From: Vulcanimicrobiota bacterium
Lineage (GTDB): Bacteria > Vulcanimicrobiota > Vulcanimicrobiia > Vulcanimicrobiales > Vulcanimicrobiaceae
Length of the DNA stretch: 64,000 nt
Direction of reading: 5' to 3'
Assembly: GCA_003168375.1 (NCBI GenBank)
Contig: PMSI01000002.1
Location: 248,001-312,000 of the forward strand
Shown: positions 2,100-59,369 of the stretch, one piece after another
Numbering within the stretch: the first letter of the stretch is position 1
Layout: each line of letters begins with the position of its first letter
Program-made: the position numbers and the translations under genes
Notes under the pieces: generated by a model
Database searches by the model: none
What the model was told of the DNA's origin: nothing
The model's input: the letters and a program-made list of their open reading frames with translations, nothing else

Positions 2100-4322
2100 T
2101 CAGGCCGCGAGAGGGCGATCCGACCGCAGGATCTGCTCGAAGCGCTCAGCGGAGACGGGTTTGGAGAAGAGGTAACCCTGTCCGCAGTCGCAGTGCAGCC
2201 GGGCGAGCGCGGCGAGCTGCTCCTTCGTTTCGATGCCTTCCGCGACGACCCGCGCGCCCAGACTATGCGCCGCGGTGATCACCGCCGCTGCGATCGCGCG
2301 GTCGACGGGGTTTTGGACGATCTCGGTCACGAAGCACATATCGAGCTTCAGCGTGTCGACGATATACGATCGGAGCGACGCGAGCGAGTTGTAGCCGGTT
2401 CCGAAGTCGTCAACCGCGATGCGGACGCCGATCGCGCGCAGTTCTTTCACGACTTCGGCGTTGCGTTCGATGTTCGCGCACATGCTCGTCTCGGTGAGTT
2501 CGAGTTCGAGCAGCTCCGGAGCGAGGCCGGACTCACGGAGCGCCCCTTGGACGGCGCGGACGAAGTGCGGATCGGCGATCTGCTTCCCCGATACGTTGAC
2601 GCTTACCTGAAGTTTCCGCCCGGCGCAATTCCACGCGGCGTTTTGCATGCATGCCGTTCGCAAGACCCACGCGCCGATCGGGACGATGAGCCCGGATTCC
2701 TCGGCGTACGGGATGAAGTCGTTCGGTTGAACGACCGTCCCGTCGGTCTGCGGCCAGCGGATCAGCGCTTCGCTCCCCCTCAACGCCCCGTTGAGCTCGT
2801 AGATCGGCTGATAGACGAGCGTAAAGGCCTCATCGTGAAGCCCGTTGCGGAGCTGCTCTTCGAGGTGCATTCGGTTCTCGGCTTCGTCGTGCATCTCCGG
2901 GGTGAAGAAGCGAGAGGTCGCGCGTCCGTCGCGCTTCGCTCGATACATCGCGGTATCCGCGTTGCGGATCAGCGTTTCGGCGTCGGCGCCGTCCTGCGGG
3001 AACACGGCGATCCCGATGCTGCATGTCGCGACGACCTCTCGCTCCGTCAGCCGAATCGGCTCGGCCGTCACGCGTTCGAGGTTCTTGGCGATCGCCGCAA
3101 CATCGTCGACGTCGCCGATTTCGGTCAGCACCGCGATGAACTCGTCGCCGCCCATGCGCGCGATGCAATCGACCTGACGCGTGTTCGAGCGAAGGCGTTC
3201 GGCCATCTCTTTGAGGAGGAGGTCCCCCACGGAGTGCCCCATCGTGTCGTTCACGTTCTTGAACTCGTCGACGTCGATGTAGAGAACGGCCGCCATGAGC
3301 CCCTGCTCGCGAGCTCGTTCGATCGCCTCTTTGAGGCGTTTGTGCAGCAGCATCCGGTTCGGTAGGCCCGTCAGGCGGTCGTGCAGCGCGCCGTACTCGA
3401 GCTGCCCCTGAGCTCGCGCCAGGGTCTCTTCGCTCCGGCGCGATCGTGCCAGGGCCTGGTTTCGTTCGGTCATGTCCTGAACCGTCACGACGTACACCTT
3501 CGCCCCGTCACGCTCGGCCGTGACGATGGACAGGTGCGCGTCGAGCGACGATCCGTCCGCCTTGCGATGCGACGAATCAGACGCACCTTTGCCGGAGAGT
3601 TCCAAGGCGCGGATCTCGTTGGTGAGCTCGGCGACGTGCTCCGGCGCGCGAAGGTCGTACGGGGTCATTGCGAGCCATTGTTCGCGTGTAAAGCCGTAGA
3701 CGTCGATGGCGGTCTGATTCACGTCGACGTAACGCAGGGTCGCCGCATCGACGAGCATCATGGGGTTCGGATTGTGCTCGAAGACGTGGCGGAGTCGCGC
3801 GACGAGCGACTCCGCCAGCTTGGCCCGGCCCTCGGTGCGGCACGACATCGCGAGAATCGCGGCGAAGCTGCGGATGAACTTGTGATCGGACGGCGCGAAG
3901 CCCGCCGGCGCCGCCGTCGTTGCCGTCAGAACGCCGTAGGTCCTCGTTCCGTGCCGGACTGCAACGGCAAGATCCGTACGCGTCTGGGGCTCGAGGCCCG
4001 CGCGGCGTTCGTGCACGCGCGAACCAGCGTCAGTAAGCGTTTCGGAGAGCTGAGGGTCGCCGGCGGCCAGCGGCCGTGCCGACGTTCGGCCGCTCGCGTG
4101 GTCACGAAGGGTCAGCGTCCCGCTCTTCTCCGAAAAGTCATAGTACGCGGCGAGGTCGCAGCGCAGTTCGCGCCGCAGGTGCCTGAGGGCACGCGGCGCC
4201 GATTCCGCAAACGGGACGCCGTGCAAACCGGCCGCGGCCGCCTGCAGCAACGCACTCGTCTGCTGAATGTCGAAGCCGTGCAGGTCGATGCTGCCGAGCA
4301 GCGGCTCGCAAACGGGGCTCAT
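2100..4322 (-). CDS. GAF-PAS-GGDEF-EAL cyclic di-GMP turnover protein
   Basis: A 740-residue cytosolic signalling protein; no membrane segment is seen. Domains in order: GAF-like (about 25-165), PAS (175-290), GGDEF (310-475), EAL (490-735). The cyclase site GGDEF is at 391-395. An inhibitory RxxD site (RQVD, 382-385) lies five residues upstream. The phosphodiesterase domain keeps EAL (518-520), ELTET, DDFGTGY, LKLD and AEGIET, so both activities look intact. The ATG at 4322 was chosen because the region upstream, although open in frame, is a non-coding leader shared with the neighbouring c-di-GMP gene. There is no Shine-Dalgarno sequence in the short gap before the start. Confidence 0.93.
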   Translation of the reverse strand: MSPVCEPLLGSIDLHGFDIQQTSALLQAAAAGLHGVPFAESAPRALRHLRRELRCDLAAYYDFSEKSGTLTLRDHASGRTSARPLAAGDPQLSETLTDAGSRVHERRAGLEPQTRTDLAVAVRHGTRTYGVLTATTAAPAGFAPSDHKFIRSFAAILAMSCRTEGRAKLAESLVARLRHVFEHNPNPMMLVDAATLRYVDVNQTAIDVYGFTREQWLAMTPYDLRAPEHVAELTNEIRALELSGKGASDSSHRKADGSSLDAHLSIVTAERDGAKVYVVTVQDMTERNQALARSRRSEETLARAQGQLEYGALHDRLTGLPNRMLLHKRLKEAIERAREQGLMAAVLYIDVDEFKNVNDTMGHSVGDLLLKEMAERLRSNTRQVDCIARMGGDEFIAVLTEIGDVDDVAAIAKNLERVTAEPIRLTEREVVATCSIGIAVFPQDGADAETLIRNADTAMYRAKRDGRATSRFFTPEMHDEAENRMHLEEQLRNGLHDEAFTLVYQPIYELNGALRGSEALIRWPQTDGTVVQPNDFIPYAEESGLIVPIGAWVLRTACMQNAAWNCAGRKLQVSVNVSGKQIADPHFVRAVQGALRESGLAPELLELELTETSMCANIERNAEVVKELRAIGVRIAVDDFGTGYNSLASLRSYIVDTLKLDMCFVTEIVQNPVDRAIAAAVITAAHSLGARVVAEGIETKEQLAALARLHCDCGQGYLFSKPVSAERFEQILRSDRPLAA

Positions 4323-4331
4323 GCCGTGAGC

Positions 4332-4410
4332 GTACGGCGCGGCGGTAACGCGGCGTGGTCGGGCGCGGACCCGGCCAGGCGTTACTGGACGGTATCCGCC
4401 GAGCGCCCGC
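4332..4410 (-). promoter_or_regulatory. Conserved leader element, copy 1
   Basis: The plus-strand 19-mer GTACGGCGCGGCGGTAACG (4332-4350) recurs exactly upstream of the next c-di-GMP gene. After 30 nt come GTTAC, five bases and GGTATCCGCC (4381-4400), again shared with identical 5-nt spacing. Read on the coding (minus) strand, GUAAC can pair with GUUAC and GGCG with CGCC. That gives a helix with an ~11-nt one-sided bulge containing GAUACC. It ends 9 nt before the start codon at 4322. Function is unknown; a cis-regulatory RNA or a protein operator are both possible. It does not match the GEMM c-di-GMP riboswitch consensus. Confidence 0.6.
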
Positions 4411-4423
4411 CGGCCGGCCCGGT

Positions 4424-6892
4424 CTATGACGCCAACTCCAGTGGTCGCGCAGCGTCTTCGCGCCCCGGCGCTGACCAAGGTGCCGTGCGCATCCAGCGCT
4501 CGAAATCGGCCGCGGGCAGCGGACGGCTGATGAAAGAGCCCTGCGAGCCGTCACAGCCCAGTTCGGATACCGTGTCCCAAGCGTCGACGGTCTCCACGCC
4601 TCCCGCGACGACGCGCAAACCGAGGTTGTGCCCGAGCTCGCTGATCAGGCGCACGATCTCCGTATCCTTCGGGTTGTGCGCCATGCCCCGGACCAAGCTC
4701 TTGTCGATCTTGATCTCGCTGACCGGGAGCTGCCGCAGATAGCCGAGGCGCGAATACCCGGTCCCGAAACCGTCGACCGACAAGGCCACGCCGAGCGCAG
4801 CAAGCCGCGCAAACACCGTCCCGGTCCGTTCGCTCTCACCGATGGCGACCGCTTCCGGCACCTCGAGCGTAAGCCGTTCAGCCGGGATCGCGAAGCGCTC
4901 GAGCATCGCGGCAACAGTGTCCGGAAGCGATGGTTCCTGCAGTGCCCGCATCGAGATGTTCACCGCCACGCCGAGCGGCATCCCGGCATCATCCCACGAC
5001 CGCGCCTGGCGCAGCGCTTCCTCGAGCACCCAATCCGTGAGCGGAACGATCACGCCGGTCTCTTCGGCGAGCGGGATGAAGTGATCGGGCGGAAGCTGGC
5101 CAAGCGTGGGGTGCAACCAACGCACGAGCGCTTCCACGTGTTCGAACCGGCCGGACCGCACGTCGACCTTCGGCTGGTAGTGCAACTCCAACTGGCCTTG
5201 CGCGATCGCCGTTCGCAAATCGGCTTCTAACGAGAGCCGCCCGGCCACGTGACGGTCCAGCGACGCGTCGTAGAGCGCAAAACCGCCGCCAGTGCGCTTG
5301 GCCGCATACATGGCAACGTCCGCCTTCCTGAGCAGCGTCGCCGGGTCGCGACCGTGCTGCGGCGACACAGCTAGCCCGATGCTGCCTGCGACGTCGAGGG
5401 GACGGCCGTTGACGACGCAAGGCGACAGCGACGCCAAGATTCGTCGCGCGATCTCCGCTGCCTCGATCTCGTTCGTGTCCGGCAGCAGCACCGCGAACTC
5501 GTCGCCGCCGATGCGCGCGACGAGGTCACCCTCGCGCAGCACGCCGCTGAGCCGCGTCGCGACGTGCTGCAGCAACGTGTCACCCGCATCGTGACCGAGC
5601 GTGTCGTTGACGTCTTTGAATCGATCGAGATCGATCAGCGCGACCGCGACGGGCTCGCCGGTGCGGCCCGCGGCCTCCGTTACGGCTACCAGGCGTTCGT
5701 TCAGGAAGGCGCGATTCGGCAGGCCGGTGAGCGCGTCGTGAAGCGCTTGATGCTTCAACGCGATCTCGGCGTGGCGGCGCTGCGTGATGTCCGTAGCGAC
5801 CGCGACGACGCTGTCGACGTGGCCGCCGACGCGTACCGGCGTCCAGTGCGTCTCGAGAACGACGCCGTCCAGAGTGCTCTGCGCAGTGTACTCCTCCCCG
5901 GCCAGCGCGCGCCGCGCCTGTTCGATAAGCGCCGGCGTATCGCTGTACACGGTGAAGAACGAGCGCCCGACCGACGGCTGGGCGCGATGGCGAAGCGCGG
6001 CGATTTCGCGTCCCTCGGCGATCGTGATGATGCCGGCCGCGTCGAACGCGAGCAGCACGACCGGCGCGTTCGAGACGACCATCCGGAGACGTCGCTGGCT
6101 CTGGCCTAGTGCGGCCTCCTGCGCGGCGAAGCGTCGATCGATGAATGCCAGCACGACGGCGAAGCCGCTCACGAGCAGCGTGATCAGCGCCATCGCGGCA
6201 CCGCCCATCGCGCCCCCGCCGAGTACCAACCCGGTGTTGGGCACGTTCGCGGCAGGGACGAACGTCGCGGCTGCCATCCCCGTGTAGTGCATACCGGCGA
6301 TCGCAAAGCCGATAACGACTGCGGCGCTAATCCGATGCCACCCGAAACGTCTGCTCGACACCGCGCGAAGATGGAAGCTCAGGCGCAGCGCCGCGAACGA
6401 AAAGACGACGGCGACGACCCCCGAAAGCGCGATGATCCGCACGTCCCACAGCGCGGTCGCCGGCATGCGCATGGCGACCATGCCGATGTAGTGCATGCTC
6501 CCGATCCCGCCACCCATCACCACAGCACCGGCGAGCGACGAGCGCCAGGTGATTCGCCGTCGCGAAATGGTGAACAGCGCGACACCGCCGGCGACGATGG
6601 CGACCAACAGTGAGAGCGCGACGATGGGGATGTCGTAGCTCACGTCGACCGGCAGCCGAAACGCCAGCATCCCGGTGAAGTGCATCGCCCACACGGCACT
6701 GCCGAACGCGATCGCGCCGCCGAGCAGCCACAGATAGCGGCTCTTGCCCTGATGTTCCGCGACGCGCTCGCTGAGCGTCAGCCCCACGTACGCGCCGATG
6801 ATCGCGATCACCACGGACAGCGCGACGAGCCGGAGATCGTACCCGCTCGCCAGCGGTGCACCCATGGTCATCGTCATGCCTGGTCCGTTCAT
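4424..6892 (-). CDS. MHYT-PAS-GGDEF-EAL membrane protein with degenerate EAL domain
   Basis: An 822-residue inner-membrane protein. The N-terminal MHYT sensor (about 15-250) has seven hydrophobic segments with the three signature repeats MHFTGM (70), MHYIGM (133) and MHYTGM (201), thought to bind a metal and sense a diatomic gas or light. A PAS follows (265-375), then GGDEF at 462-466 with an RxxD I-site (REGD 453-456). The EAL domain (about 555-800) keeps EAL 587-589. However, DDFGTG is DGFGTG (G708) and the AEGVE motif is AGGVE (G764), so hydrolysis is probably lost. The ATG at 6892 follows the second copy of the shared leader. It lies upstream of the GAF-PAS-GGDEF-EAL gene. Confidence 0.93.
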   Translation of the reverse strand: MNGPGMTMTMGAPLASGYDLRLVALSVVIAIIGAYVGLTLSERVAEHQGKSRYLWLLGGAIAFGSAVWAMHFTGMLAFRLPVDVSYDIPIVALSLLVAIVAGGVALFTISRRRITWRSSLAGAVVMGGGIGSMHYIGMVAMRMPATALWDVRIIALSGVVAVVFSFAALRLSFHLRAVSSRRFGWHRISAAVVIGFAIAGMHYTGMAAATFVPAANVPNTGLVLGGGAMGGAAMALITLLVSGFAVVLAFIDRRFAAQEAALGQSQRRLRMVVSNAPVVLLAFDAAGIITIAEGREIAALRHRAQPSVGRSFFTVYSDTPALIEQARRALAGEEYTAQSTLDGVVLETHWTPVRVGGHVDSVVAVATDITQRRHAEIALKHQALHDALTGLPNRAFLNERLVAVTEAAGRTGEPVAVALIDLDRFKDVNDTLGHDAGDTLLQHVATRLSGVLREGDLVARIGGDEFAVLLPDTNEIEAAEIARRILASLSPCVVNGRPLDVAGSIGLAVSPQHGRDPATLLRKADVAMYAAKRTGGGFALYDASLDRHVAGRLSLEADLRTAIAQGQLELHYQPKVDVRSGRFEHVEALVRWLHPTLGQLPPDHFIPLAEETGVIVPLTDWVLEEALRQARSWDDAGMPLGVAVNISMRALQEPSLPDTVAAMLERFAIPAERLTLEVPEAVAIGESERTGTVFARLAALGVALSVDGFGTGYSRLGYLRQLPVSEIKIDKSLVRGMAHNPKDTEIVRLISELGHNLGLRVVAGGVETVDAWDTVSELGCDGSQGSFISRPLPAADFERWMRTAPWSAPGREDAARPLELAS

Positions 6893-6904
6893 CGTGAACC
6901 GACG

Positions 6905-6985
6905 GTACGGCGCGGCGGTAACGCCGCGCGGTCCGCCGCTGCGCCGCTGCTGGTTACCGTGCGGTATCCGCCGCCGAACGCCCGC
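6905..6985 (-). promoter_or_regulatory. Conserved leader element, copy 2
   Basis: It shares with copy 1 the exact 19-mer GTACGGCGCGGCGGTAACG (6905-6923) and, after 29 nt, GTTAC, five bases and GGTATCCGCC (6953-6972), followed by CGCCCGC (6979-6985). The bases between these blocks differ from copy 1 while the pairing GUAAC/GUUAC and GGCG/CGCC is kept. It ends 12 nt before the MHYT gene start at 6892. This copy lies between divergent genes (panE starts at 7044), so it could also affect the plus strand, but copy 1 has no such neighbour. Confidence 0.6.
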
Positions 6986-11716: not shown

Positions 11717-14473
11717 TTAAAGGCGACGAAGCGCCAAATCGATCGCCGCGGCCTCGCTCAGCTTAGCTCCCTGCAGTTGTAAATCGACGAGTTGGCTCCC
11801 GGAGAATCGGTTGCGGAGCGACTGCCGCACAATGCTCCAAACTCTATCGCTAGCAACATAATGCAGATGCAATCCGCTTCGGGCACATGCCTCCTCAACA
11901 TAACCGAGCAACATAGCGCCATCACTCCCATCTCTCTCTATCGCCAGTATTGCTGCGGCGACTAGCAACTGAGAAAAGGGCTCCTGCTGCAACGGGACCG
12001 TTAAGCGCAGCGACTCGGCACAGGCCCGCCTGGCGTGATCGATGTCTCCCAAAGCTAGCCGATACATGCTCAAGTTCGCGAGTAACGCGGCTTCAAAAAC
12101 GAGGTGCCGACTCCGTGCGAGTTCTAGTGCTGACGACGCGATTTCCACGGCGAGGTCCGATTTGCCAGCAGCAAACTCAAGGTCGGCGAGATTCGCCTGC
12201 GTGAAGACGACCCCGGTAGCTTCGTTCAAGTTCTCCATCCTCGAGGAGACGTCAGCGTACAGCGCGCGAGCTTCTTGCCGTTTGTCTGGTTGGGCGCTAA
12301 GAACTAGGGCGCGAATGCCAAGCGCTTGGACGTACGGCAGCGATTCCAGGTCTTCGTCTCGATACTCCGAGAGCGCGCGAACGCACGACTGGTCCGCTGC
12401 CGAGATTTCGCCCGTCTCATAATACGAATACGCCAAATGGAGATATCCGGACGCCAGGTCTATTCGATCTCCTGAACTCTCCGCCAACGCGATGATCTTA
12501 CGGGCGGTAACGGCGCGCGCAGGACCGATTTCTGTGCTGGCGAGCGCTCGAAACAGGCTCAGGACGGTTCTCGACGGTTTCGCGGCACTAAGCCGACTGA
12601 GGGCCGTCTGGATGTATTGACGTCCTTCCGCTTTCAGGCGATGCGTCCAGAATACTCGTAGCGATCCGATTATTCGGCCGGCCAGTTGCACATCGCCGCC
12701 AGGGCGCAATGCCCAGTCGATTGCCGCGCGGATATTATCGATTTCATGCTCCACGATTGGAAGCGCATCTTCGAGCGACTGGTCGGCCTTGACCGAAAAG
12801 GCCTTTCCGATCGTTTCAATCCAGCGTGCGTGGCGACGTGCGACCACATAGCGCCCCTTGCGCAGGCGTAGCTTGTCCGCCGCGTAGAATCGAGTCCAGT
12901 CGAGAAGGCGGTATCTCGTATTGTGGCCGGCCGGCTCCGCGATGACTAGCGACTTTTCGATCAACGAGCCTATGATGGCAGCGACATGCGTACGCTTGAC
13001 CATGTCGTATGCGCAAACGCTCTCTGCGGCGTCCAATGTCCAGCCGCCGACAAATACGCAAAGCCGTCCGAATACAACTTTTTCGTCCTCATTCAAGAGT
13101 GCGTAGCTCCACTCCATCATTGAGTACAAGGTCCGTTGTCGCGGAGGTGAATTGCGAACTGCGGTTCCCAGCACGTCAAAATGGTTACGTAGTCGTCCAT
13201 TGAGCTCAGTCACCGCAAAGAGGTGCATCTGTGATGCGGCAAGCTCAATGGCGTACGGTATCCCGTCCAATCGGTTGACGATATCGGATACGGAAGACGC
13301 TTCAGAGTCTTTTAACACAAAACGTCTGTTTGCTGCACAGGCTCGATCGACAAACAGCATCACGGCAGGGTATTGCATAACTCCCGCAGCGTTCATATCG
13401 GCAAGCAACCGCTGGTCCGGGACGTCGAGACCTTGCAATGAGTATTGACGTTCTCCATCGATTCGAAGCGGCGCTCGAGACGTACACAAGAGGGTCACTT
13501 GCGCGCATCCCGTCATGACGGCGTCTGATAGGCCGGCGACATCGTCGATGAGATGTTCACAGTTGTCCAATATGATGAGAGTTTTTCGATGCCGAAGGTA
13601 ACGTACTACGTCGTCCATGGGATCGCCACTACTAGTCGCGCCGCAGCCGATGGCATTTGCGACACTGAATGCAATCAGTGCTCCATCAGACAACGCGGCG
13701 AGATCCACAAACCATACGCCGTCCGAGAACTTGTCGCGACTATCGGACGCTGCCCTGATTGCGGTCCTTGTCTTGCCGATGCCCGGTGTGCCAGTTATTG
13801 TGACCAAACGCTGTTGATCAAGCGATAGCGTAATGTTTGCGAGGTCATCCTGCCGACCGACGAAGCTGCTTACCGAAGGGGGCAGATTATTGGGAACGTT
13901 CGCGATCGACACAAGGGGTGGAAAGTTTATTTTCGTACCCGGCGCACGGACTTGAAAGAGGCGTATCGGCGTTTCAAGTCCTCTGAGACGGTGGTCGCCG
14001 AGATCATCAAAGGAGATCGTACGCGGCAGTTCGCCACTCGACAGTTCAACAACTACATTAGACGCAAGAATTTGACCGCCGTAAGTTACACTCAGGATTC
14101 TCGCAACGGCGTTTAGAGTTGGCCCGAAATAGTCGCCACTTCGTTCGTCCGCTGAGCCCGCGTGAAGTGCGACGCGCACCAACAGCCCGTCGATGTTCGA
14201 CCAGTCCTCTCTTGCAATTCGCAGCTGAATTCCAACTGCCGCGCGAATGGCATCATCCGCAGTTGCGAACGCTACGCAAAAGGCATCTCCAACGGTCTTG
14301 AACACACGGCCAGACCACTCTGAGACTTCCTCCCGTACAATTTCGTCGTGCAGGCGCACCGCAGCCTTCATCGCGGTCGTGGTGCGATCCCAACGCTGCG
14401 TGCTGTTCTCTACATCGGTGAACAGGAAGGTAATGGTGCCGCTCGGATACGCTACGTCGTTGCTCGTATCCAT
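11717..14473 (-). CDS. Class III nucleotide cyclase fused to an NB-ARC-like ATPase and TPR repeats
   Basis: A 918-residue soluble regulator. Residues about 10-185 are a class III adenylate/guanylate cyclase domain. FTDVENS and KTVGDAF hold the two metal aspartates, and NAVARI holds the transition-state Asn and Arg, so it looks catalytically competent. Residues about 205-500 are an ATPase with Walker A GTPGIGKTRTA and a Walker B TLIILDNCEHL. The remainder is alpha-helical TPR-like repeats. This is the architecture of actinobacterial-type cyclase/AfsR-like regulators without the DNA-binding domain. Base composition is clearly lower in G+C than its neighbours, suggesting acquisition. The ligand and output are unknown. 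Confidence 0.88.
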   Translation of the reverse strand: MDTSNDVAYPSGTITFLFTDVENSTQRWDRTTTAMKAAVRLHDEIVREEVSEWSGRVFKTVGDAFCVAFATADDAIRAAVGIQLRIAREDWSNIDGLLVRVALHAGSADERSGDYFGPTLNAVARILSVTYGGQILASNVVVELSSGELPRTISFDDLGDHRLRGLETPIRLFQVRAPGTKINFPPLVSIANVPNNLPPSVSSFVGRQDDLANITLSLDQQRLVTITGTPGIGKTRTAIRAASDSRDKFSDGVWFVDLAALSDGALIAFSVANAIGCGATSSGDPMDDVVRYLRHRKTLIILDNCEHLIDDVAGLSDAVMTGCAQVTLLCTSRAPLRIDGERQYSLQGLDVPDQRLLADMNAAGVMQYPAVMLFVDRACAANRRFVLKDSEASSVSDIVNRLDGIPYAIELAASQMHLFAVTELNGRLRNHFDVLGTAVRNSPPRQRTLYSMMEWSYALLNEDEKVVFGRLCVFVGGWTLDAAESVCAYDMVKRTHVAAIIGSLIEKSLVIAEPAGHNTRYRLLDWTRFYAADKLRLRKGRYVVARRHARWIETIGKAFSVKADQSLEDALPIVEHEIDNIRAAIDWALRPGGDVQLAGRIIGSLRVFWTHRLKAEGRQYIQTALSRLSAAKPSRTVLSLFRALASTEIGPARAVTARKIIALAESSGDRIDLASGYLHLAYSYYETGEISAADQSCVRALSEYRDEDLESLPYVQALGIRALVLSAQPDKRQEARALYADVSSRMENLNEATGVVFTQANLADLEFAAGKSDLAVEIASSALELARSRHLVFEAALLANLSMYRLALGDIDHARRACAESLRLTVPLQQEPFSQLLVAAAILAIERDGSDGAMLLGYVEEACARSGLHLHYVASDRVWSIVRQSLRNRFSGSQLVDLQLQGAKLSEAAAIDLALRRL

Positions 14474-24881: not shown

Positions 24882-25950
24882 TGGGATCGATGCCGAGGTC
24901 GGCGGCGAGCGCGTCGAGGTCGTCGATGACCGGTCCGATCAGCGGGATGCCGTCGCGCCGGAACGCGATCTCGTTCTCGTGCTCGATCTCGCCTGCCACG
25001 TACACGCGTGACTCGCCGGGCGCCGGTGTGCTCGCTTTGAACGTGCGCAACTCGCGATCCATCTCCAGCTTGAACTCGCGCACGTCGCGCAGCGCCTCGA
25101 TGCTGATCGCGCCGAAGAAGTGCGAGGTGATCCCGGACGGCGCGTCCGGACCCTCGGTCAGCGTGAGCGCGGCGCCGAACCAGCCTGCGGCCAGCACGCC
25201 GGTCAGGATCTCCGCCAAGGCACCGAGCCCGTAACCCTTGTGGCCACCGCCCTCGGTGCCGAAGCCGCCGAGCGGGAGCAGCGAGCCCCAGTGCCGCGCC
25301 GCCGGATCGGTCGTCGGATTGCCGTGCTCGTCGACGGCCCAGCCGGGTTTGAGCGCGAGCGCCTTGCGTTCGTACACTTCGAGCTTGCCGTAGGTCACGG
25401 TCGTGGTCGAGAAGTCGAGCACGAACGGCGGTTCTTCGCCGGCCGGGACCGCGAACGCGAACGGGTTCGTCCCTTGCATCTTCGTGCTCCCGAAGGTGGG
25501 CACGGCGAGGTGGATCGAGTCGGTCGAGCAGATGCCGATCATGTCGTACTCGAGCGCCATCATCGCGTAGTAGCCGGCGATCCCGTAGTGGTTCGAATTG
25601 CGCACCGCGCTAAAGGCGATCCCGCTCGCGCGCGCCTTGTCGATCGCGCGCGTCATCGCCAGGTGCGCGGCGGGATGGCCGAGCCCGTTGTCGGCGTCGA
25701 TCAGCAGCGCGGTCGCGCTCTCGCGCACGATCTCGTAGCGCGGCTGGGCTTTGATGCGCCCGTTGCGGATGCGGTCGACGTAGAACCAGCGCAGGCGCGC
25801 GACGCCGTGCGACTCGATCCCGCGGCGGTCGGCCGCGACGAGGATATCGGCGACGGTCTTGGCCTGCTGCTCGTCGATGCCGACGTGGGTCAACGACCGC
25901 TCGACGAACGCCGACAGGTCCGCCTCGCGGACGCGCACGGTCTCACTCAA
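24862..25950 (-). CDS. Ldh2-family 2-hydroxyacid dehydrogenase, copy B
   Basis: About 362 residues from a TTG (25950) overlapping the upstream gene by 8 bp; a GTG at 25938 is the alternative. This is the malate/L-lactate dehydrogenase (YlbC/ComC) fold, unlike classical LDH. It has DRRGIESHGVARLRWFYVDRI, VRNSNHYGIAGYYAMMAL with the catalytic His, and GTEGGGHKGYGLGALAEIL. It is closely similar to the copy immediately upstream. Substrates in the family include malate, lactate, ureidoglycolate and sulfolactate. The operon context suggests oxidation of an imported 2-hydroxy acid to the 2-oxo acid used by the dehydrogenase complex. Confidence 0.9.
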   Translation of the reverse strand: MSETVRVREADLSAFVERSLTHVGIDEQQAKTVADILVAADRRGIESHGVARLRWFYVDRIRNGRIKAQPRYEIVRESATALLIDADNGLGHPAAHLAMTRAIDKARASGIAFSAVRNSNHYGIAGYYAMMALEYDMIGICSTDSIHLAVPTFGSTKMQGTNPFAFAVPAGEEPPFVLDFSTTTVTYGKLEVYERKALALKPGWAVDEHGNPTTDPAARHWGSLLPLGGFGTEGGGHKGYGLGALAEILTGVLAAGWFGAALTLTEGPDAPSGITSHFFGAISIEALRDVREFKLEMDRELRTFKASTPAPGESRVYVAGEIEHENEIAFRRDGIPLIGPVIDDLDALAADLGIDPITRISP

Positions 25951-27046
25951 CGGTGAACCTCTCCAGCTTTTCGATCCCCAGCCGTTCGGCCATCGTGTCG
26001 ATTGCTTCCCACACTTTCGGATCGATCGGAACGCCTTCGCTGCGGTAGCGCTCGGTGTTCGCGCGCTCCGGCTCGCCCGGGATGATGACGCGCTCGGCGC
26101 CCGGCACGGGAGCGCTGTTCTCAAACGTGCGCAGCTCGCGGTCGAGGTCGCGCTCGAACGCGTCCGCGTCGCGCAGCGCGTCGATGCGGAACGCGCCGAA
26201 GAAATTGCCGACGATTCCGCCGTGCATCCCCGTCTCCGGCACGTCGGCCGCGGCGCCGAACAAACCGCCCGCGAGCACGCCGCACAGGATGTCGACCAGC
26301 GCGCCGAGGCCGTAGCCCTTGTGGCCGCCGCCGTCGGTGCCGTACCCGCCGAGCGGGAGCAGCGCGCCGACCGTTTTCGCGATCAGCGGATCGCGCGTTT
26401 CGCGGCCCTCGCCGTCGACCGCCCAGCCGGCCTTGAGCGGCTTGCCCTTGCGCTCGCTGACCTCGAGCCGCCCGAACGTCACGCCGGTCGTCGACATGTC
26501 CAGCACAAACGGCGGATGCTCGCGCGCCGGGATCGCGACCGCGATCGGGTTCGTCCCGGTCGTCTTCTTCGCCCCGAACGTCGGCACCGCGAGGTGGGTC
26601 GAGTTCGTCATCGAGAGCCCGATCATGCCGTGTTCGAGCGCCATCATCGCGTAGTACGCGGCGATACCGTAGTGGTTCGAGTTCCGCACCGTCGCGAACG
26701 CCACGCCGTTCTCGCGCGCCTTCTCGATCGCTTGGCCCATCGCGAACTTGCCGGGGGGATGTCCGAGCCCGTTCCCGGCGTCGAGCGCGAACTGCGTGGG
26801 CCGGTCGGAGAGCGTCGTGTAGGTGGGGCGCGCGTTGACCACGCCGGCTTCGATACGCCGCACGTAGAACGTCTCCAGTCGCGCGATCCCGTGCGACTCG
26901 ACACCGCGCAGGTCGGCGGCGACGAGCACGTCGGCGACGTCGCGTGCGTCCTGGTCGCGCACGTTCACCGCGGTCAGCGCCCGCACGATGAAATCGTGTT
27001 CGGCGGCTTCGCGGGTCCGGATCTTGGACGGTTCCTCGCCGATCAT
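25943..27046 (-). CDS. Ldh2-family 2-hydroxyacid dehydrogenase, copy A
   Basis: 367 residues, same family and motif order as the next gene: DLRGVESHGIARLETFYVRRI, VRNSNHYGIAAYYAMMALE, VPTFGAKKTTGTNPIAVAIP and GTDGGGHKGYGLGALVDILCG. The ATG at 27046 overlaps the E2 stop by one base (TGATG). Two tandem paralogues after one 2-oxoacid dehydrogenase suggest either different stereochemistry or chain length, or a heteromeric enzyme. The sequence alone does not separate these options. Confidence 0.92.
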   Translation of the reverse strand: MIGEEPSKIRTREAAEHDFIVRALTAVNVRDQDARDVADVLVAADLRGVESHGIARLETFYVRRIEAGVVNARPTYTTLSDRPTQFALDAGNGLGHPPGKFAMGQAIEKARENGVAFATVRNSNHYGIAAYYAMMALEHGMIGLSMTNSTHLAVPTFGAKKTTGTNPIAVAIPAREHPPFVLDMSTTGVTFGRLEVSERKGKPLKAGWAVDGEGRETRDPLIAKTVGALLPLGGYGTDGGGHKGYGLGALVDILCGVLAGGLFGAAADVPETGMHGGIVGNFFGAFRIDALRDADAFERDLDRELRTFENSAPVPGAERVIIPGEPERANTERYRSEGVPIDPKVWEAIDTMAERLGIEKLERFTVE

Positions 27047-55596: not shown

Positions 55597-57504
55597 TCAG
55601 ACACGGAGCGCGACGCCGAACTCGATGATGCGGTCGGGCGGTATCCCCAGCGAGTCGGTGAGCGGGTTGGCATTGCGCATCATGTACGCCAGCAGCCAGC
55701 GGCGCCATTTCGGGAACTTGTAGCGGTCGTTACGCTTGACGATGCGCGGCCGAGCCAGGAAGAAGTCGGCGTCATCGAGGTCGATCTCCTTGGGCAGCTG
55801 AGGCCTGCAGTGCGAGAGGATCTCGCCGACGTTCGGGGTTTCCATGAACCCGTAGTATGCCGTGACTCGGGTGAGGCGAGGGACGATCTGCTCGATGCGC
55901 ACACGGTTCGCCGGATCGACGTACGGGCGCCGCGTGTTGACGATCGTGAGCAGCACGACTTCCTCGCGCAGCATCCGCGTGCGCAGCCAGTGGTGTTGCA
56001 GGATGAACGGGATCCCCTCCGGATGCGGCGTGAGAAATATCACCGTCCCGTCCGCCGTTGTCGCGGGACGGTCGGAGATTTCTTTGACGAACGCTGCGAC
56101 CGGCGTGGAGAGCTTCGAGAGCGCGATCGCGAGGCGCCGGCGGCCGGCGACCCAGGTGGTGAAGAGCGTGAACACGACCAGCGCGATCCCGACCGGGATG
56201 TAGCCGCCCTCTGCGAACTTCGGCAGGTTGCCGACCAGGAACGCGAGGTCGACGATCAGGAACAGCGCGACCAGCGCGACGGTCTGCGGCACCGACCATT
56301 TGAAACGGCCGCGCAGCACCCAGCCGATCACCAGCGAGTCGGCGAGCATCGTCACCGTCACAGCCAGCCCGTACGCGGCGCCGAGGCGGTCGGCGCTGCC
56401 GAAGACCAGCACCAGCGCCAGACACGCGATCGCGAGCGCGTAGTTCACGAACGGCATGTAGATCTGGCCTTCGACCGCGTGCGAGGTGTGCACGACGGTG
56501 AGGCGCGGCAGGTAGCCGAGCTGCACCGCCTGCTGGGTCAGCGAGAACGCGCCCGAGATCAGCGCCTGCGAGGCGATCACCGTTGCCATCGTCGCCAGCA
56601 CCACCATCGGGATCAGCACCCAGCCCGGGTAGAGCGCGTAGAACGGGTTTTCCAGCACGTGCGGATCGAGGAGCGTCAGCGCGCCCTGGCCGTAGTAGTT
56701 GAGCAGCAGCGCCGGGAACACGGCGCCGTACCATGCGAGCCTGATCGCGCGCCGCCCGAAATGCGCCAGGTCGGCGAACATCGCCTCGACGCCCGTGACA
56801 CACAGCACGACCGCGCCCAGCACGAGGATCGCCGTGAGGCCGTTGTGCGTCATGAAGCTCAGCGCGTAGAACGGGTTGAGCGCGACCAGCACGCGCGGAT
56901 CGCGCGCGAGCGCGACGATACCGCCGATCGCCATCGCGACGAACCACAGCACCATCACCGGCCCGAAGACGGTACCGATGCGCCCCGCGCCCCGCGACTG
57001 CACGAGAAACAACCCGATCAGAATCCCGACCGTGATCGGGACGATGAACGGGTGCGCCGCGGTCGTCGCGACACCGATCCCTTCGACCGCGGAGAGCACC
57101 GAGATCGCCGGCGTGATCACGCCGTCGCCGAAGACCATCCCCGCCGCGAAGAGCAGCATGTAGACGACGAACGTCATCGGAGCCGGAATGCCGACGCGGC
57201 TGCTCGGGCGGAGCTGCGCCAGCAGCGCGAGGGTACCGCCTTCGCCCTCGTTGTCGGCGCGCAGTACGATCGTCGCGTACTTGACGCACACGACCAGGAT
57301 CAGCGCCCAGGTGATCAGCGAGAGGATCCCGAGCACGTGCTCCGCGCTCGGCGTGAACCCGCGCCCGGTCGTGAAACACTGCTTGAACGCATACAGCGGG
57401 CTCGTTCCGATGTCGCCGAAAACGACGCCCAGCGCGGCCAGTGCGAGCGGGCCGAGGCGCGCCGGATGGGCCGGCCCGGGTTCGACCGGCCGCGCTCGGA
57501 TCAT
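55597..57504 (-). CDS. kup: Kup-type potassium transporter, copy 2
   Basis: 635 residues. About twelve helices (1-450) starting LALAALGVVFGDIGTSPLYAFKQCF, the Kup signature, with GDGVITPAISVLSAVEGI and GVEAMFADLAHFG. A soluble C-terminal region follows (TVIFLTPHPEGIPFILQHH and beyond). It imports K+ with H+. Its ATG (57504) overlaps the stop of the other kup gene. The two proteins differ throughout, so this is an old duplication, perhaps giving different affinity or pH range. Confidence 0.95.
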   Translation of the reverse strand: MIRARPVEPGPAHPARLGPLALAALGVVFGDIGTSPLYAFKQCFTTGRGFTPSAEHVLGILSLITWALILVVCVKYATIVLRADNEGEGGTLALLAQLRPSSRVGIPAPMTFVVYMLLFAAGMVFGDGVITPAISVLSAVEGIGVATTAAHPFIVPITVGILIGLFLVQSRGAGRIGTVFGPVMVLWFVAMAIGGIVALARDPRVLVALNPFYALSFMTHNGLTAILVLGAVVLCVTGVEAMFADLAHFGRRAIRLAWYGAVFPALLLNYYGQGALTLLDPHVLENPFYALYPGWVLIPMVVLATMATVIASQALISGAFSLTQQAVQLGYLPRLTVVHTSHAVEGQIYMPFVNYALAIACLALVLVFGSADRLGAAYGLAVTVTMLADSLVIGWVLRGRFKWSVPQTVALVALFLIVDLAFLVGNLPKFAEGGYIPVGIALVVFTLFTTWVAGRRRLAIALSKLSTPVAAFVKEISDRPATTADGTVIFLTPHPEGIPFILQHHWLRTRMLREEVVLLTIVNTRRPYVDPANRVRIEQIVPRLTRVTAYYGFMETPNVGEILSHCRPQLPKEIDLDDADFFLARPRIVKRNDRYKFPKWRRWLLAYMMRNANPLTDSLGIPPDRIIEFGVALRV

Positions 57505-59369
57505 ATCTCGACCGTGATGCCGAGTTCGACCCGCCGTTCGGCGGTGATCCGCAAGTCGTCCGGCAGCGGACGCGCGTTGCGCTGGAGGGCGCTGAACAGC
57601 TCCCGGCGCCAGCCGACCATGCCGTGCTCCGGCGCCGCCTCGATCTTCGGATCGGCGTAGAAGAACGAGGTGTCGTCGCGATCGAGCTGCAGTCCGAAGG
57701 CGTCGCAAGAGCGGAAGATCGGATCGATCCGCGGCGCTTCCATGTAGCCGAAACGCGCGACGACGCGGACCAGCCGCAGCGAGAGCCGCTCGACGGTGAC
57801 GCGCTCTTCGTGGGTGAGATACGGTGTCGGGGCACGCGCGATGTTGAGCACGACGATGCGCTCCTCTTGCGCGCGCTCGCGGATCCAGCGATGCCGCGCG
57901 AGGAACGGAACACCGCGTGGATCGGGGGTCAAGAACACCATCGTTCCTTGTTCACCCACGCCGGCCGGCAGCTTCTCGAGCACGTCCTCGATCGGGATCT
58001 GCTGCGCGGCGAGGGCGCGGGCGAGGGCACGGCGTCCTTCGAGCCAGGTCGTGCTCATCAGCACGAGCGTCGCGCTGATCCCCAGCGGGATCCAGCCACC
58101 GTGCAGGATCTTCGGCAGCGACGCGATGGCGAGGCTGCCGTCGACGAGCACGAACAGCGTGACGAGCGCAAGCGACGCGGCCGGGTTCCAGCGCAGCACC
58201 TTGGAGATCACTACGTAGTAGGTCAATGACGTGCACATCATCGTGAACGAGATCGCGACACCGTACACGGACGCGAGCCGTTCGCTCGAGCCGAACGCGA
58301 GCACCAGCATCGCGCAACCGACCGCGAGCCACAAGTTGACCGACGGGACGTAGACTTGGCCCTTGTACCGGTCCGACGTGTGCTTTACCAGCACGCGCGG
58401 CGCGAGGTTGAGCGCGATCGCCTGCTCGATCAGCGTGAACGTTCCGGAGATCAGCGCCTGCGAGGCGATGACCGTCGCGCCGGTCGCGAGCACGACCATC
58501 GGGATCAGCGCCCACGCGGGCGCGAGCGCGTAGAATGGGTTCGACAGCGCGCTGGGATGCGCGACCAGGTTCGCGCCCTGACCGAAATAGTTCAGCACCA
58601 GCGCCGGAAAGACGAGCGTGTACCAGCCGGTCACGATCGGCCCGCGCCCGAAGTGCGAGAGATCGGCGTACATCGCCTCGACGCCCGTGACCGCAAGGAC
58701 CACGCCGCCGAGGATCACGATACCGCCGAGCCCGCCGTGGAATAGGAAGTGCACCGCGAAGCGCGGATCGAGCGCCTGCATGACCTCGGGGTGCAAGAAG
58801 ATCGCTTGCGCGCCGAAGTAGGCGATGACCAAGAACCACACCAGCATCACCGGGCCGAACAGGATACCGACCCGCTCCGTGCCGTTTCGCTGCAGCGCGA
58901 ACAGGCCGATGATGACCGCGAGCGAGATCGGTACGACGTACGGTTCAAACGCCGACGAGACGATCCCGATCCCTTCGACCGCCGAGATGACGGAGATCGC
59001 CGGGGTGATCACCCCGTCGCCCACCATCATCGAACCGCCCACGACCACGATCAGCGTCAGCAGACTCGTCTTGATCGTGGTGCCGAACGGGCGCGGCGGC
59101 GACGCGAGCGCGAGCAGCGCGAGGATACCGCCTTCGCCTTCGTGATCGACCCGCATGATGAAGGTGACGTATTTGACGCACACGACGACCACGAGCACCC
59201 AGAAGATCAGCGAGCAGACGCCGAGCACGTCGGCGAGCCCGCCCTTCGAACCGGCGAGCCCGAGACAGACCTTGAGCGTGTAGAGCGGGCTGGTGCCGAT
59301 GTCTCCGAACACGACGCCCATCGCGGCGACGATGAGGTACAACTGGGGTTTGGAGCGCCGCTGGGTCAC
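57501..59369 (-). CDS. kup: Kup-type potassium transporter, copy 1
   Basis: 622 residues from a GTG (59369) with AAGGA about 6 nt upstream. It opens YLIVAAMGVVFGDIGTSPLYTLKVC and carries GDGVITPAISVISAVEGIGI, GVEAMYADLSHFG and GATVIASQALISGTFTLIEQA. The C-terminal domain (from about 460) has FLTPDPRGVPFLARHRW. It is the first gene of the kup pair and lies 62 bp after the stop of the MalT-type regulator, so the regulator may control it. Confidence 0.95.
   Translation of the reverse strand: MTQRRSKPQLYLIVAAMGVVFGDIGTSPLYTLKVCLGLAGSKGGLADVLGVCSLIFWVLVVVVCVKYVTFIMRVDHEGEGGILALLALASPPRPFGTTIKTSLLTLIVVVGGSMMVGDGVITPAISVISAVEGIGIVSSAFEPYVVPISLAVIIGLFALQRNGTERVGILFGPVMLVWFLVIAYFGAQAIFLHPEVMQALDPRFAVHFLFHGGLGGIVILGGVVLAVTGVEAMYADLSHFGRGPIVTGWYTLVFPALVLNYFGQGANLVAHPSALSNPFYALAPAWALIPMVVLATGATVIASQALISGTFTLIEQAIALNLAPRVLVKHTSDRYKGQVYVPSVNLWLAVGCAMLVLAFGSSERLASVYGVAISFTMMCTSLTYYVVISKVLRWNPAASLALVTLFVLVDGSLAIASLPKILHGGWIPLGISATLVLMSTTWLEGRRALARALAAQQIPIEDVLEKLPAGVGEQGTMVFLTPDPRGVPFLARHRWIRERAQEERIVVLNIARAPTPYLTHEERVTVERLSLRLVRVVARFGYMEAPRIDPIFRSCDAFGLQLDRDDTSFFYADPKIEAAPEHGMVGWRRELFSALQRNARPLPDDLRITAERRVELGITVEI

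Follow-up and report, generated by a model that had tools for sequence, protein, structure and literature searches.

The window analysed here, a stretch of 64,000 nucleotides from a Vulcanimicrobiota bacterium (contig PMSI01000002.1, positions 248,001 to 312,000), carries on its minus strand two adjacent c-di-GMP genes that differ in their N-terminal sensors (GAF/PAS-GGDEF-EAL versus MHYT-PAS-GGDEF-EAL), and directly before the start of each lies a copy of an element of about 80 nt. The initial annotation, which had drawn attention to this pair, described it correctly: the exact 19-mer GTACGGCGCGGCGGTAACG is present at 4332-4350 and 6905-6923, the identity in fact covering 20 nt; the second block, GTTAC-N5-GGTATCCGCC, stands 30 nt (copy 1) and 29 nt (copy 2) from it; the element ends 9 nt from one ATG (4322-4320) and 12 nt from the other (6892-6890); and no Shine-Dalgarno-like word occurs within 20 nt upstream of either ATG. 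Read along the gene strand, both copies share a single layout, GATAC-N6-GTAAC followed after 30-31 bp by GTTAC, after 10 bp by a TAnnnT hexamer, and 6 or 9 nt further on by the ATG, with the following features.

2100..4322, minus strand: GAF/PAS-GGDEF-EAL gene, putatively driven by copy 1
4329..4334, minus strand: copy 1, -10-like hexamer TACGCT, 6 nt before the ATG (TAnnnT invariant in 10 of 10 aligned sites)
4345..4349, minus strand: copy 1, GTTAC box, separated from the -10 by exactly 10 nt
4357..4360, minus strand: copy 1, GACC, putative degenerate repeat, 11 bp above GTTAC
4381..4385, minus strand: copy 1, upstream GTAAC, facing GTTAC across 31 bp
4392..4396, minus strand: copy 1, GATAC, 11 bp upstream of GTAAC
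4424..6892, minus strand: MHYT-PAS-GGDEF-EAL gene, putatively driven by copy 2
6902..6907, minus strand: copy 2, -10-like hexamer TACCGT, 9 nt before the ATG
6918..6922, minus strand: copy 2, GTTAC box, 10 nt upstream of the -10
6930..6933, minus strand: copy 2, GACC, putative degenerate repeat, 11 bp above GTTAC
6953..6957, minus strand: copy 2, upstream GTAAC, facing GTTAC across 30 bp
6964..6968, minus strand: copy 2, GATAC, 11 bp upstream of GTAAC

A repeated 19-mer is by itself a weak observation in a GC-rich window, as such repeats are frequent in shuffled windows; the significance of the element derives instead from its two blocks at fixed spacing, from its exclusivity (2 copies in the 4.43 Mb of the genome, by DNA similarity and by pattern alike) and from its conservation in relatives. 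The sister species G004 holds the same two copies. Other repeated 19-mers in the window, at 25265-26650 and 56555-58690, show constant offsets of about 1,080 and 1,892 bp and point to two tandem gene duplications; elsewhere, a nucleotide cyclase-ATPase-TPR gene (11717-14473, minus strand) has a third-position GC of 0.60, far below that of its neighbours, which suggests a foreign origin.

The 80 nt as a whole was rejected as the conserved unit: GGCGGATACC-N5-GTAAC as such is confined to the genome under study (G000) and G004, whereas the promoter-proximal part is found more widely. Orthologous and paralogous genes of the congeners G001 and G002 keep this part only, namely GACC..GC..CGTTAC, ten bases and TAnnnT, usually with an ATG or GTG six or seven bases after the hexamer. 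Among ten aligned sites, drawn from four species and lying before non-homologous genes, CGTTAC and the TA and T of the hexamer are invariant at fixed positions. The strict pattern GACCnnGCnnCGTTAC-N10-TAnnnT has 9 matches in 117 genomes of the class (1 for the reversed control), all of them in four congeners and all before c-di-GMP or Flp/Tad pilus genes; a looser pattern adds a site of the genome under study, before another GGDEF-EAL gene (L121). Pattern matches in G002:C26 and G005:C11 were taken as chance because no fitting gene lies there. A 43-nt profile built on sequence only gives E below 1e-6 for its ten training sites and above 0.02 for everything else, and proved too strict, missing the exported-protein sites described below.

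In the genome under study, 1.91 Mb (43%), sampled in stretches, was scanned, and the list of putative regulon members rests on those stretches. The form GTTAC-N10-KAnnnT-N5..7-RTG occurs at seven sites there, against 1 for the reversed control:

site 1: window copy 1
site 2: the flp pilin/Tad operon
sites 3 and 4: two exported-protein genes, one of them CAP/YkwD-like, beside an AfsR/SARP-like regulator
sites 5 and 6: the GGDEF-EAL genes L121 and L322
site 7: the TPR-LuxR-type regulator L326

Copy 2, with its N9 gap, is an eighth site outside the strict N5..7 form. With the start fixed at N6, a GTTAC-to-hexamer spacing of 10 yields 7 sites, while each of 19 other spacings (2-9 and 11-21) yields 0-1; GTTAC placed 10 bp upstream of a TAnnnT or KAnnnT -10-like hexamer is the core of the design.

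Further repeats accompany this core. A second copy, the -38 repeat, often degenerate, lies 11 bp above GTTAC: it is plain as GWWAC-N6-GTWAC in several sites and appears as the degenerate GACC in most c-di-GMP sites, the same position holding GATAC, GTAAC or GTTAC in others. Direct 11-bp repeats read GTTAC-N6-GTTAC in G002, GATAC-N6-GTTAC at L121 and GTAAC-N6-GTTAC at L326. Two to four helical turns upstream, most sites, though not all, have G[AT][AT]AC-N6-GTAAC as a facing pair, or else GTAAC alone; sites before two G002 genes have no clear upstream GTAAC. The full arrangement G[AT][AT]AC-N6-GTAAC-N29..33-GTTAC is found four times in the sampled 43% (both window copies and both exported-protein promoters) and not at all in the control; the GATAC-N6-GTAAC of the window copies is equivalent to the GTAAC-N6-GTAAC of the exported-protein promoters, and the GATACC that had initially been described as a bulge is the outer repeat of this facing pair. 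The gaps between GTAAC and GTTAC amount to 21, 30, 31 and 42 bp in the sampled part of the genome (plus one of 6 bp, which is the 11-bp repeat itself) and to 30-32 bp in relatives, so that they fit two, three or four whole helical turns; the 21-bp case alone is weak, as the single control match also had a gap of 21. Clusters of GTWAC, defined as three or more within 110 bp, were seen only beside the SARP-like regulator gene in G000, G004 and G002 and, in G001, at the Tad locus; in the genome under study there is none in the window or in 12 other 20-kb stretches.

The genes behind these sites form a restricted set. The blind pattern scan newly led to the GGDEF-EAL genes L121 and L322 and to the TPR-LuxR regulator; of 12 GGDEF domains in the sampled 43%, four are immediately preceded by a box, another belongs to an apparent operon behind a boxed gene, and the regulon would thus cover a subset of the c-di-GMP genes. 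The promoter of the TPR-LuxR regulator (L326:10900-11020, minus strand) has four GTTAC/GTAAC boxes, for which reason this gene may form a secondary level within the regulon. Two CAP-domain genes of G002 that adjoin the ortholog of the SARP-like regulator carry the layout, and a GGDEF-EAL gene on the regulator's other side reads GTTAC-N6-GTTAC-N10-TACGGT-N7-ATG, a clean 11-bp direct repeat. In G001, GTAAC-N6-GTAAC-N30-GTTAC lies between the Tad secretin gene and flp, and a gene adjoining the regulator reads GTTAC-N10-GACGGT-N6-ATG. The recurrence of one design before c-di-GMP genes, pilus genes and the regulator locus suggests that a single unrecognised regulator may switch them together. Our literature search, whose coverage was incomplete, found no report of such a regulon, and none in which SARP or BTAD proteins are connected to c-di-GMP or to Tad pili.

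Two side observations concern the same loci. At L120 (4812-11050 and 11065-19900), the SARP-like regulator gene stands between a PAS-EAL gene and a Tad pilus locus comprising secretin, flp, prepilin peptidase, RcpC, ATPase and TadE/TadG-like genes. A family of small exported proteins with the signature LAPADRYFGxxxMSILGVRNSL, encoded at L120:7056-7472 and L267:10628-11038 (both minus strand) and without an NCBIfam match, is found next to the SARP-like regulator of three genomes (G000, G004 and G001), a GTTAC-type promoter being present in every case.

The position of the hexamer relative to the start codon bears on what is transcribed. In leaderless promoters of Mycobacterium tuberculosis and Deinococcus-Thermus, the start codon follows a TANNNT box after 6-7 nt (PMC3898074; PMC12340547), and the gap from hexamer to start is N6 or N7 in most of the present sites and N9 in copy 2. 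By this likeness TAnnnT would be the -10 box, transcription would begin on the start codon or no more than about 3 nt from it (for copy 2, whose -10 lies 9 nt from the ATG, the expected leader is about 3 nt long), and the element would lie upstream of the mRNA and would not itself be transcribed; a leaderless or near-leaderless start would also explain the missing Shine-Dalgarno. In contrast to those promoters, the arrangement is limited here to a few genes that also have GTTAC boxes, and leaderless starts are not clearly enriched among the sampled genes in general. In G001 (L082, 3940-3880 region) and G002 (L083, 3730-3650 region), both on the minus strand, a tiny ORF (MSHESASLW and MSHAHVLDSRFVHPGDRTPAVW, respectively) begins at the leaderless ATG that the box drives, and its stop overlaps the ATG of an MHYT-GGDEF-EAL gene (TGATG, TAATG), an overlap that suggests translational coupling.

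The geometry of the sites recalls the operators of the SARP family, in which repeats lie 11 or 22 bp apart, the 3' repeat is 8 bp from the -10 and the operator overlaps a poor -35 (PMC10936776; PMC5930380). Like the afs box of the afsS promoter and the PimR boxes of the pimM promoter in Streptomyces, the sites described here combine a distance of 8 bp to the -10 with an operator laid over a poor -35; the 11-bp repeat is exact in some of them and degenerate in most c-di-GMP sites. In all ten aligned sites 8 bp separate the GTTACnn heptamer from TAnnnT, and only the spacing of 10 from GTTAC is enriched; the ten sites share no conserved -35-like hexamer, the operator occupying that stretch. Unlike the SARP/AfsR operators, they have GTTAC as their core, which a repeat pair faces from whole helical turns upstream, their start codons would be leaderless, their targets are c-di-GMP enzymes and Tad pili, and their host relates to Candidatus Eremiobacterota, not to Actinomycetota.

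A candidate for the cognate protein is encoded at C7:106275-109049. It matches Pfam BTAD with 41.4 bits (cut-off 22.1) and Trans_reg_C with 23.0 bits, below the cut-off of 26.2, so that it shows an OmpR-type DNA-binding domain followed by BTAD with the DNA-binding match marginal; its best PDB sequence match is AfsR (8hvr, E 3.7e-5, over 205 residues). Like AfsR and SARP-LAL regulators such as PimR, it joins an ATPase region to the OmpR-type DNA-binding/BTAD pair. In those proteins, however, the SARP part is N-terminal, whereas in the candidate it is C-terminal (residues 826-1038) and follows the ATPase match (residues 131-247); the protein is called SARP-like because its domain order differs in this way from that of AfsR. 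Its flanking genes carry the best operator copies. The closest orthologs occur in five of 11 congeners (G000, G004, G002, G010 and, more distantly, G001), which include all four that have sites; in the remaining six congeners no site was found beyond the matches judged chance. The exception, G010, has an ortholog 80% identical and no site detected by the strict patterns or near the ortholog gene, which counts against the assignment to the SARP protein, although that assembly is only 81% complete.

That the sites are operators is very probable; that their binder belongs to the SARP/OmpR-type class is a conclusion towards which we lean with some reserve; and for the C7:106275-109049 protein as the predicted binder we consider the case evenly balanced. 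The most serious competitor, which we regard as somewhat unlikely, accepts the same DNA operator and assigns it to another protein, either a two-component response regulator of the OmpR family or the TPR-LuxR protein, whose own gene has the box. PhoB/OmpR-type proteins likewise use 11-bp repeats next to the -10, the L326 regulator combines a box with a LuxR-type DNA-binding domain, and the SARP protein without a detected site in G010 points the same way. The boxes could be bound by the LuxR-type regulator L326 or by some other winged-helix protein encoded elsewhere in the genome. Against this assignment, the densest box clusters adjoin the SARP gene in three species, with a box also by the neighbouring gene in a fourth, and direct 11-bp repeats are unusual for LuxR-type domains.

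Recognition by an alternative sigma factor rather than by an activator would also account for a small promoter set with a fixed core-to--10 spacing and no -35 consensus; it is nonetheless very unlikely, as the 10 bp between GTTAC and the -10 are too short for a sigma -35 element and the 11-bp repeats, with further boxes at whole helical turns upstream, fit a DNA-binding regulator. The initial annotation had proposed a cis-acting RNA or an operator. The operator half of this proposal is supported, as further GGDEF-EAL genes and also the Tad pilus operon are preceded by the box layout; the RNA half, a riboswitch-like leader whose stem, GUAAC/GUUAC plus GGCG/CGCC around the GAUACC bulge, would sense c-di-GMP or another ligand, has become highly improbable. 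Each of the five close sequences can indeed form the named pairings, and the genes lack a Shine-Dalgarno. In the relative G001, however, the outer helix is broken by loss of the GGCG/CGCC arm while the GTTAC box and the -10 are kept; the element strand folds no better than its shuffles (z about 0); and compensatory changes affect none of nine proposed pairs, a count of limited power with five sequences. A free RNAalifold consensus of the five sequences, tried as another candidate structure, had an unfavourable covariation term and a kept double change in only 2 of 24 predicted pairs. The arms are moreover found again as direct repeats (GTTAC-N6-GTTAC) and around loops of 21, 30-32 or 42 nt, which suits helical phasing rather than a stem. 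By comparison with the GEMM-I and GEMM-II c-di-GMP riboswitches, the element shares the position upstream of c-di-GMP genes; it differs in matching no covariance model, in lacking covariation and in being probably not transcribed. No Rfam family matches the window at the gathering threshold and none matches at the elements at E of 10 or below, and the TAnnnT hexamer between element and ATG would place the transcription start downstream of the element, an outcome that had been named in advance as contrary to the RNA proposal. The repeat is thus most likely a DNA promoter/operator and not an RNA leader. That the copies are meaningless leftovers of a recent tandem duplication of gene and promoter is scarcely credible: both genes are adjacent and encode GGDEF-EAL proteins, yet their DNA similarity is restricted to about 80 bp, and the layout, conserved in other species, also stands before genes that are unlinked and non-homologous, namely the pilus operon and those for the exported proteins and the regulator.

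The reading that we prefer, and hold to be likely as a whole, is that of a DNA operator fused to a -10 promoter and serving a lineage-specific regulon, activated by a SARP/OmpR-type protein for which the C7:106275-109049 protein is the prime candidate. Judging from the geometry, an OmpR/SARP-type activator, with the ATPase-SARP protein as the leading candidate, would bind the 11-bp repeats and replace the missing -35 contact; under its control some of the cell's GGDEF-EAL enzymes would be expressed alongside the Tad/Flp pilus operon, the exported proteins and a regulator of the LuxR type, from transcripts that, by the position of the hexamer, would be translated with no leader or nearly none. 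More tentatively, the facing 11-bp repeat pairs two, three or four turns apart may betray a two-site (looped or tetrameric) variant of SARP action, in which an ATPase-linked SARP-like activator outside Actinomycetota activates leaderless c-di-GMP and Tad promoters and ties surface attachment to second-messenger turnover.

The case also carries a warning, in that inverted repeats just before start codons can mimic riboswitch leaders in GC-rich genomes with leaderless transcripts. If the proposal is right, a regulon would become predictable from sequence, as GTTAC-N10-TAnnnT and a leaderless start, in a lineage of Candidatus Eremiobacterota relatives known here only from genomes; it would come with a named and testable master regulator, and SARP-type activation, known from the antibiotic clusters of Streptomyces, would extend to c-di-GMP signalling and Tad pili.
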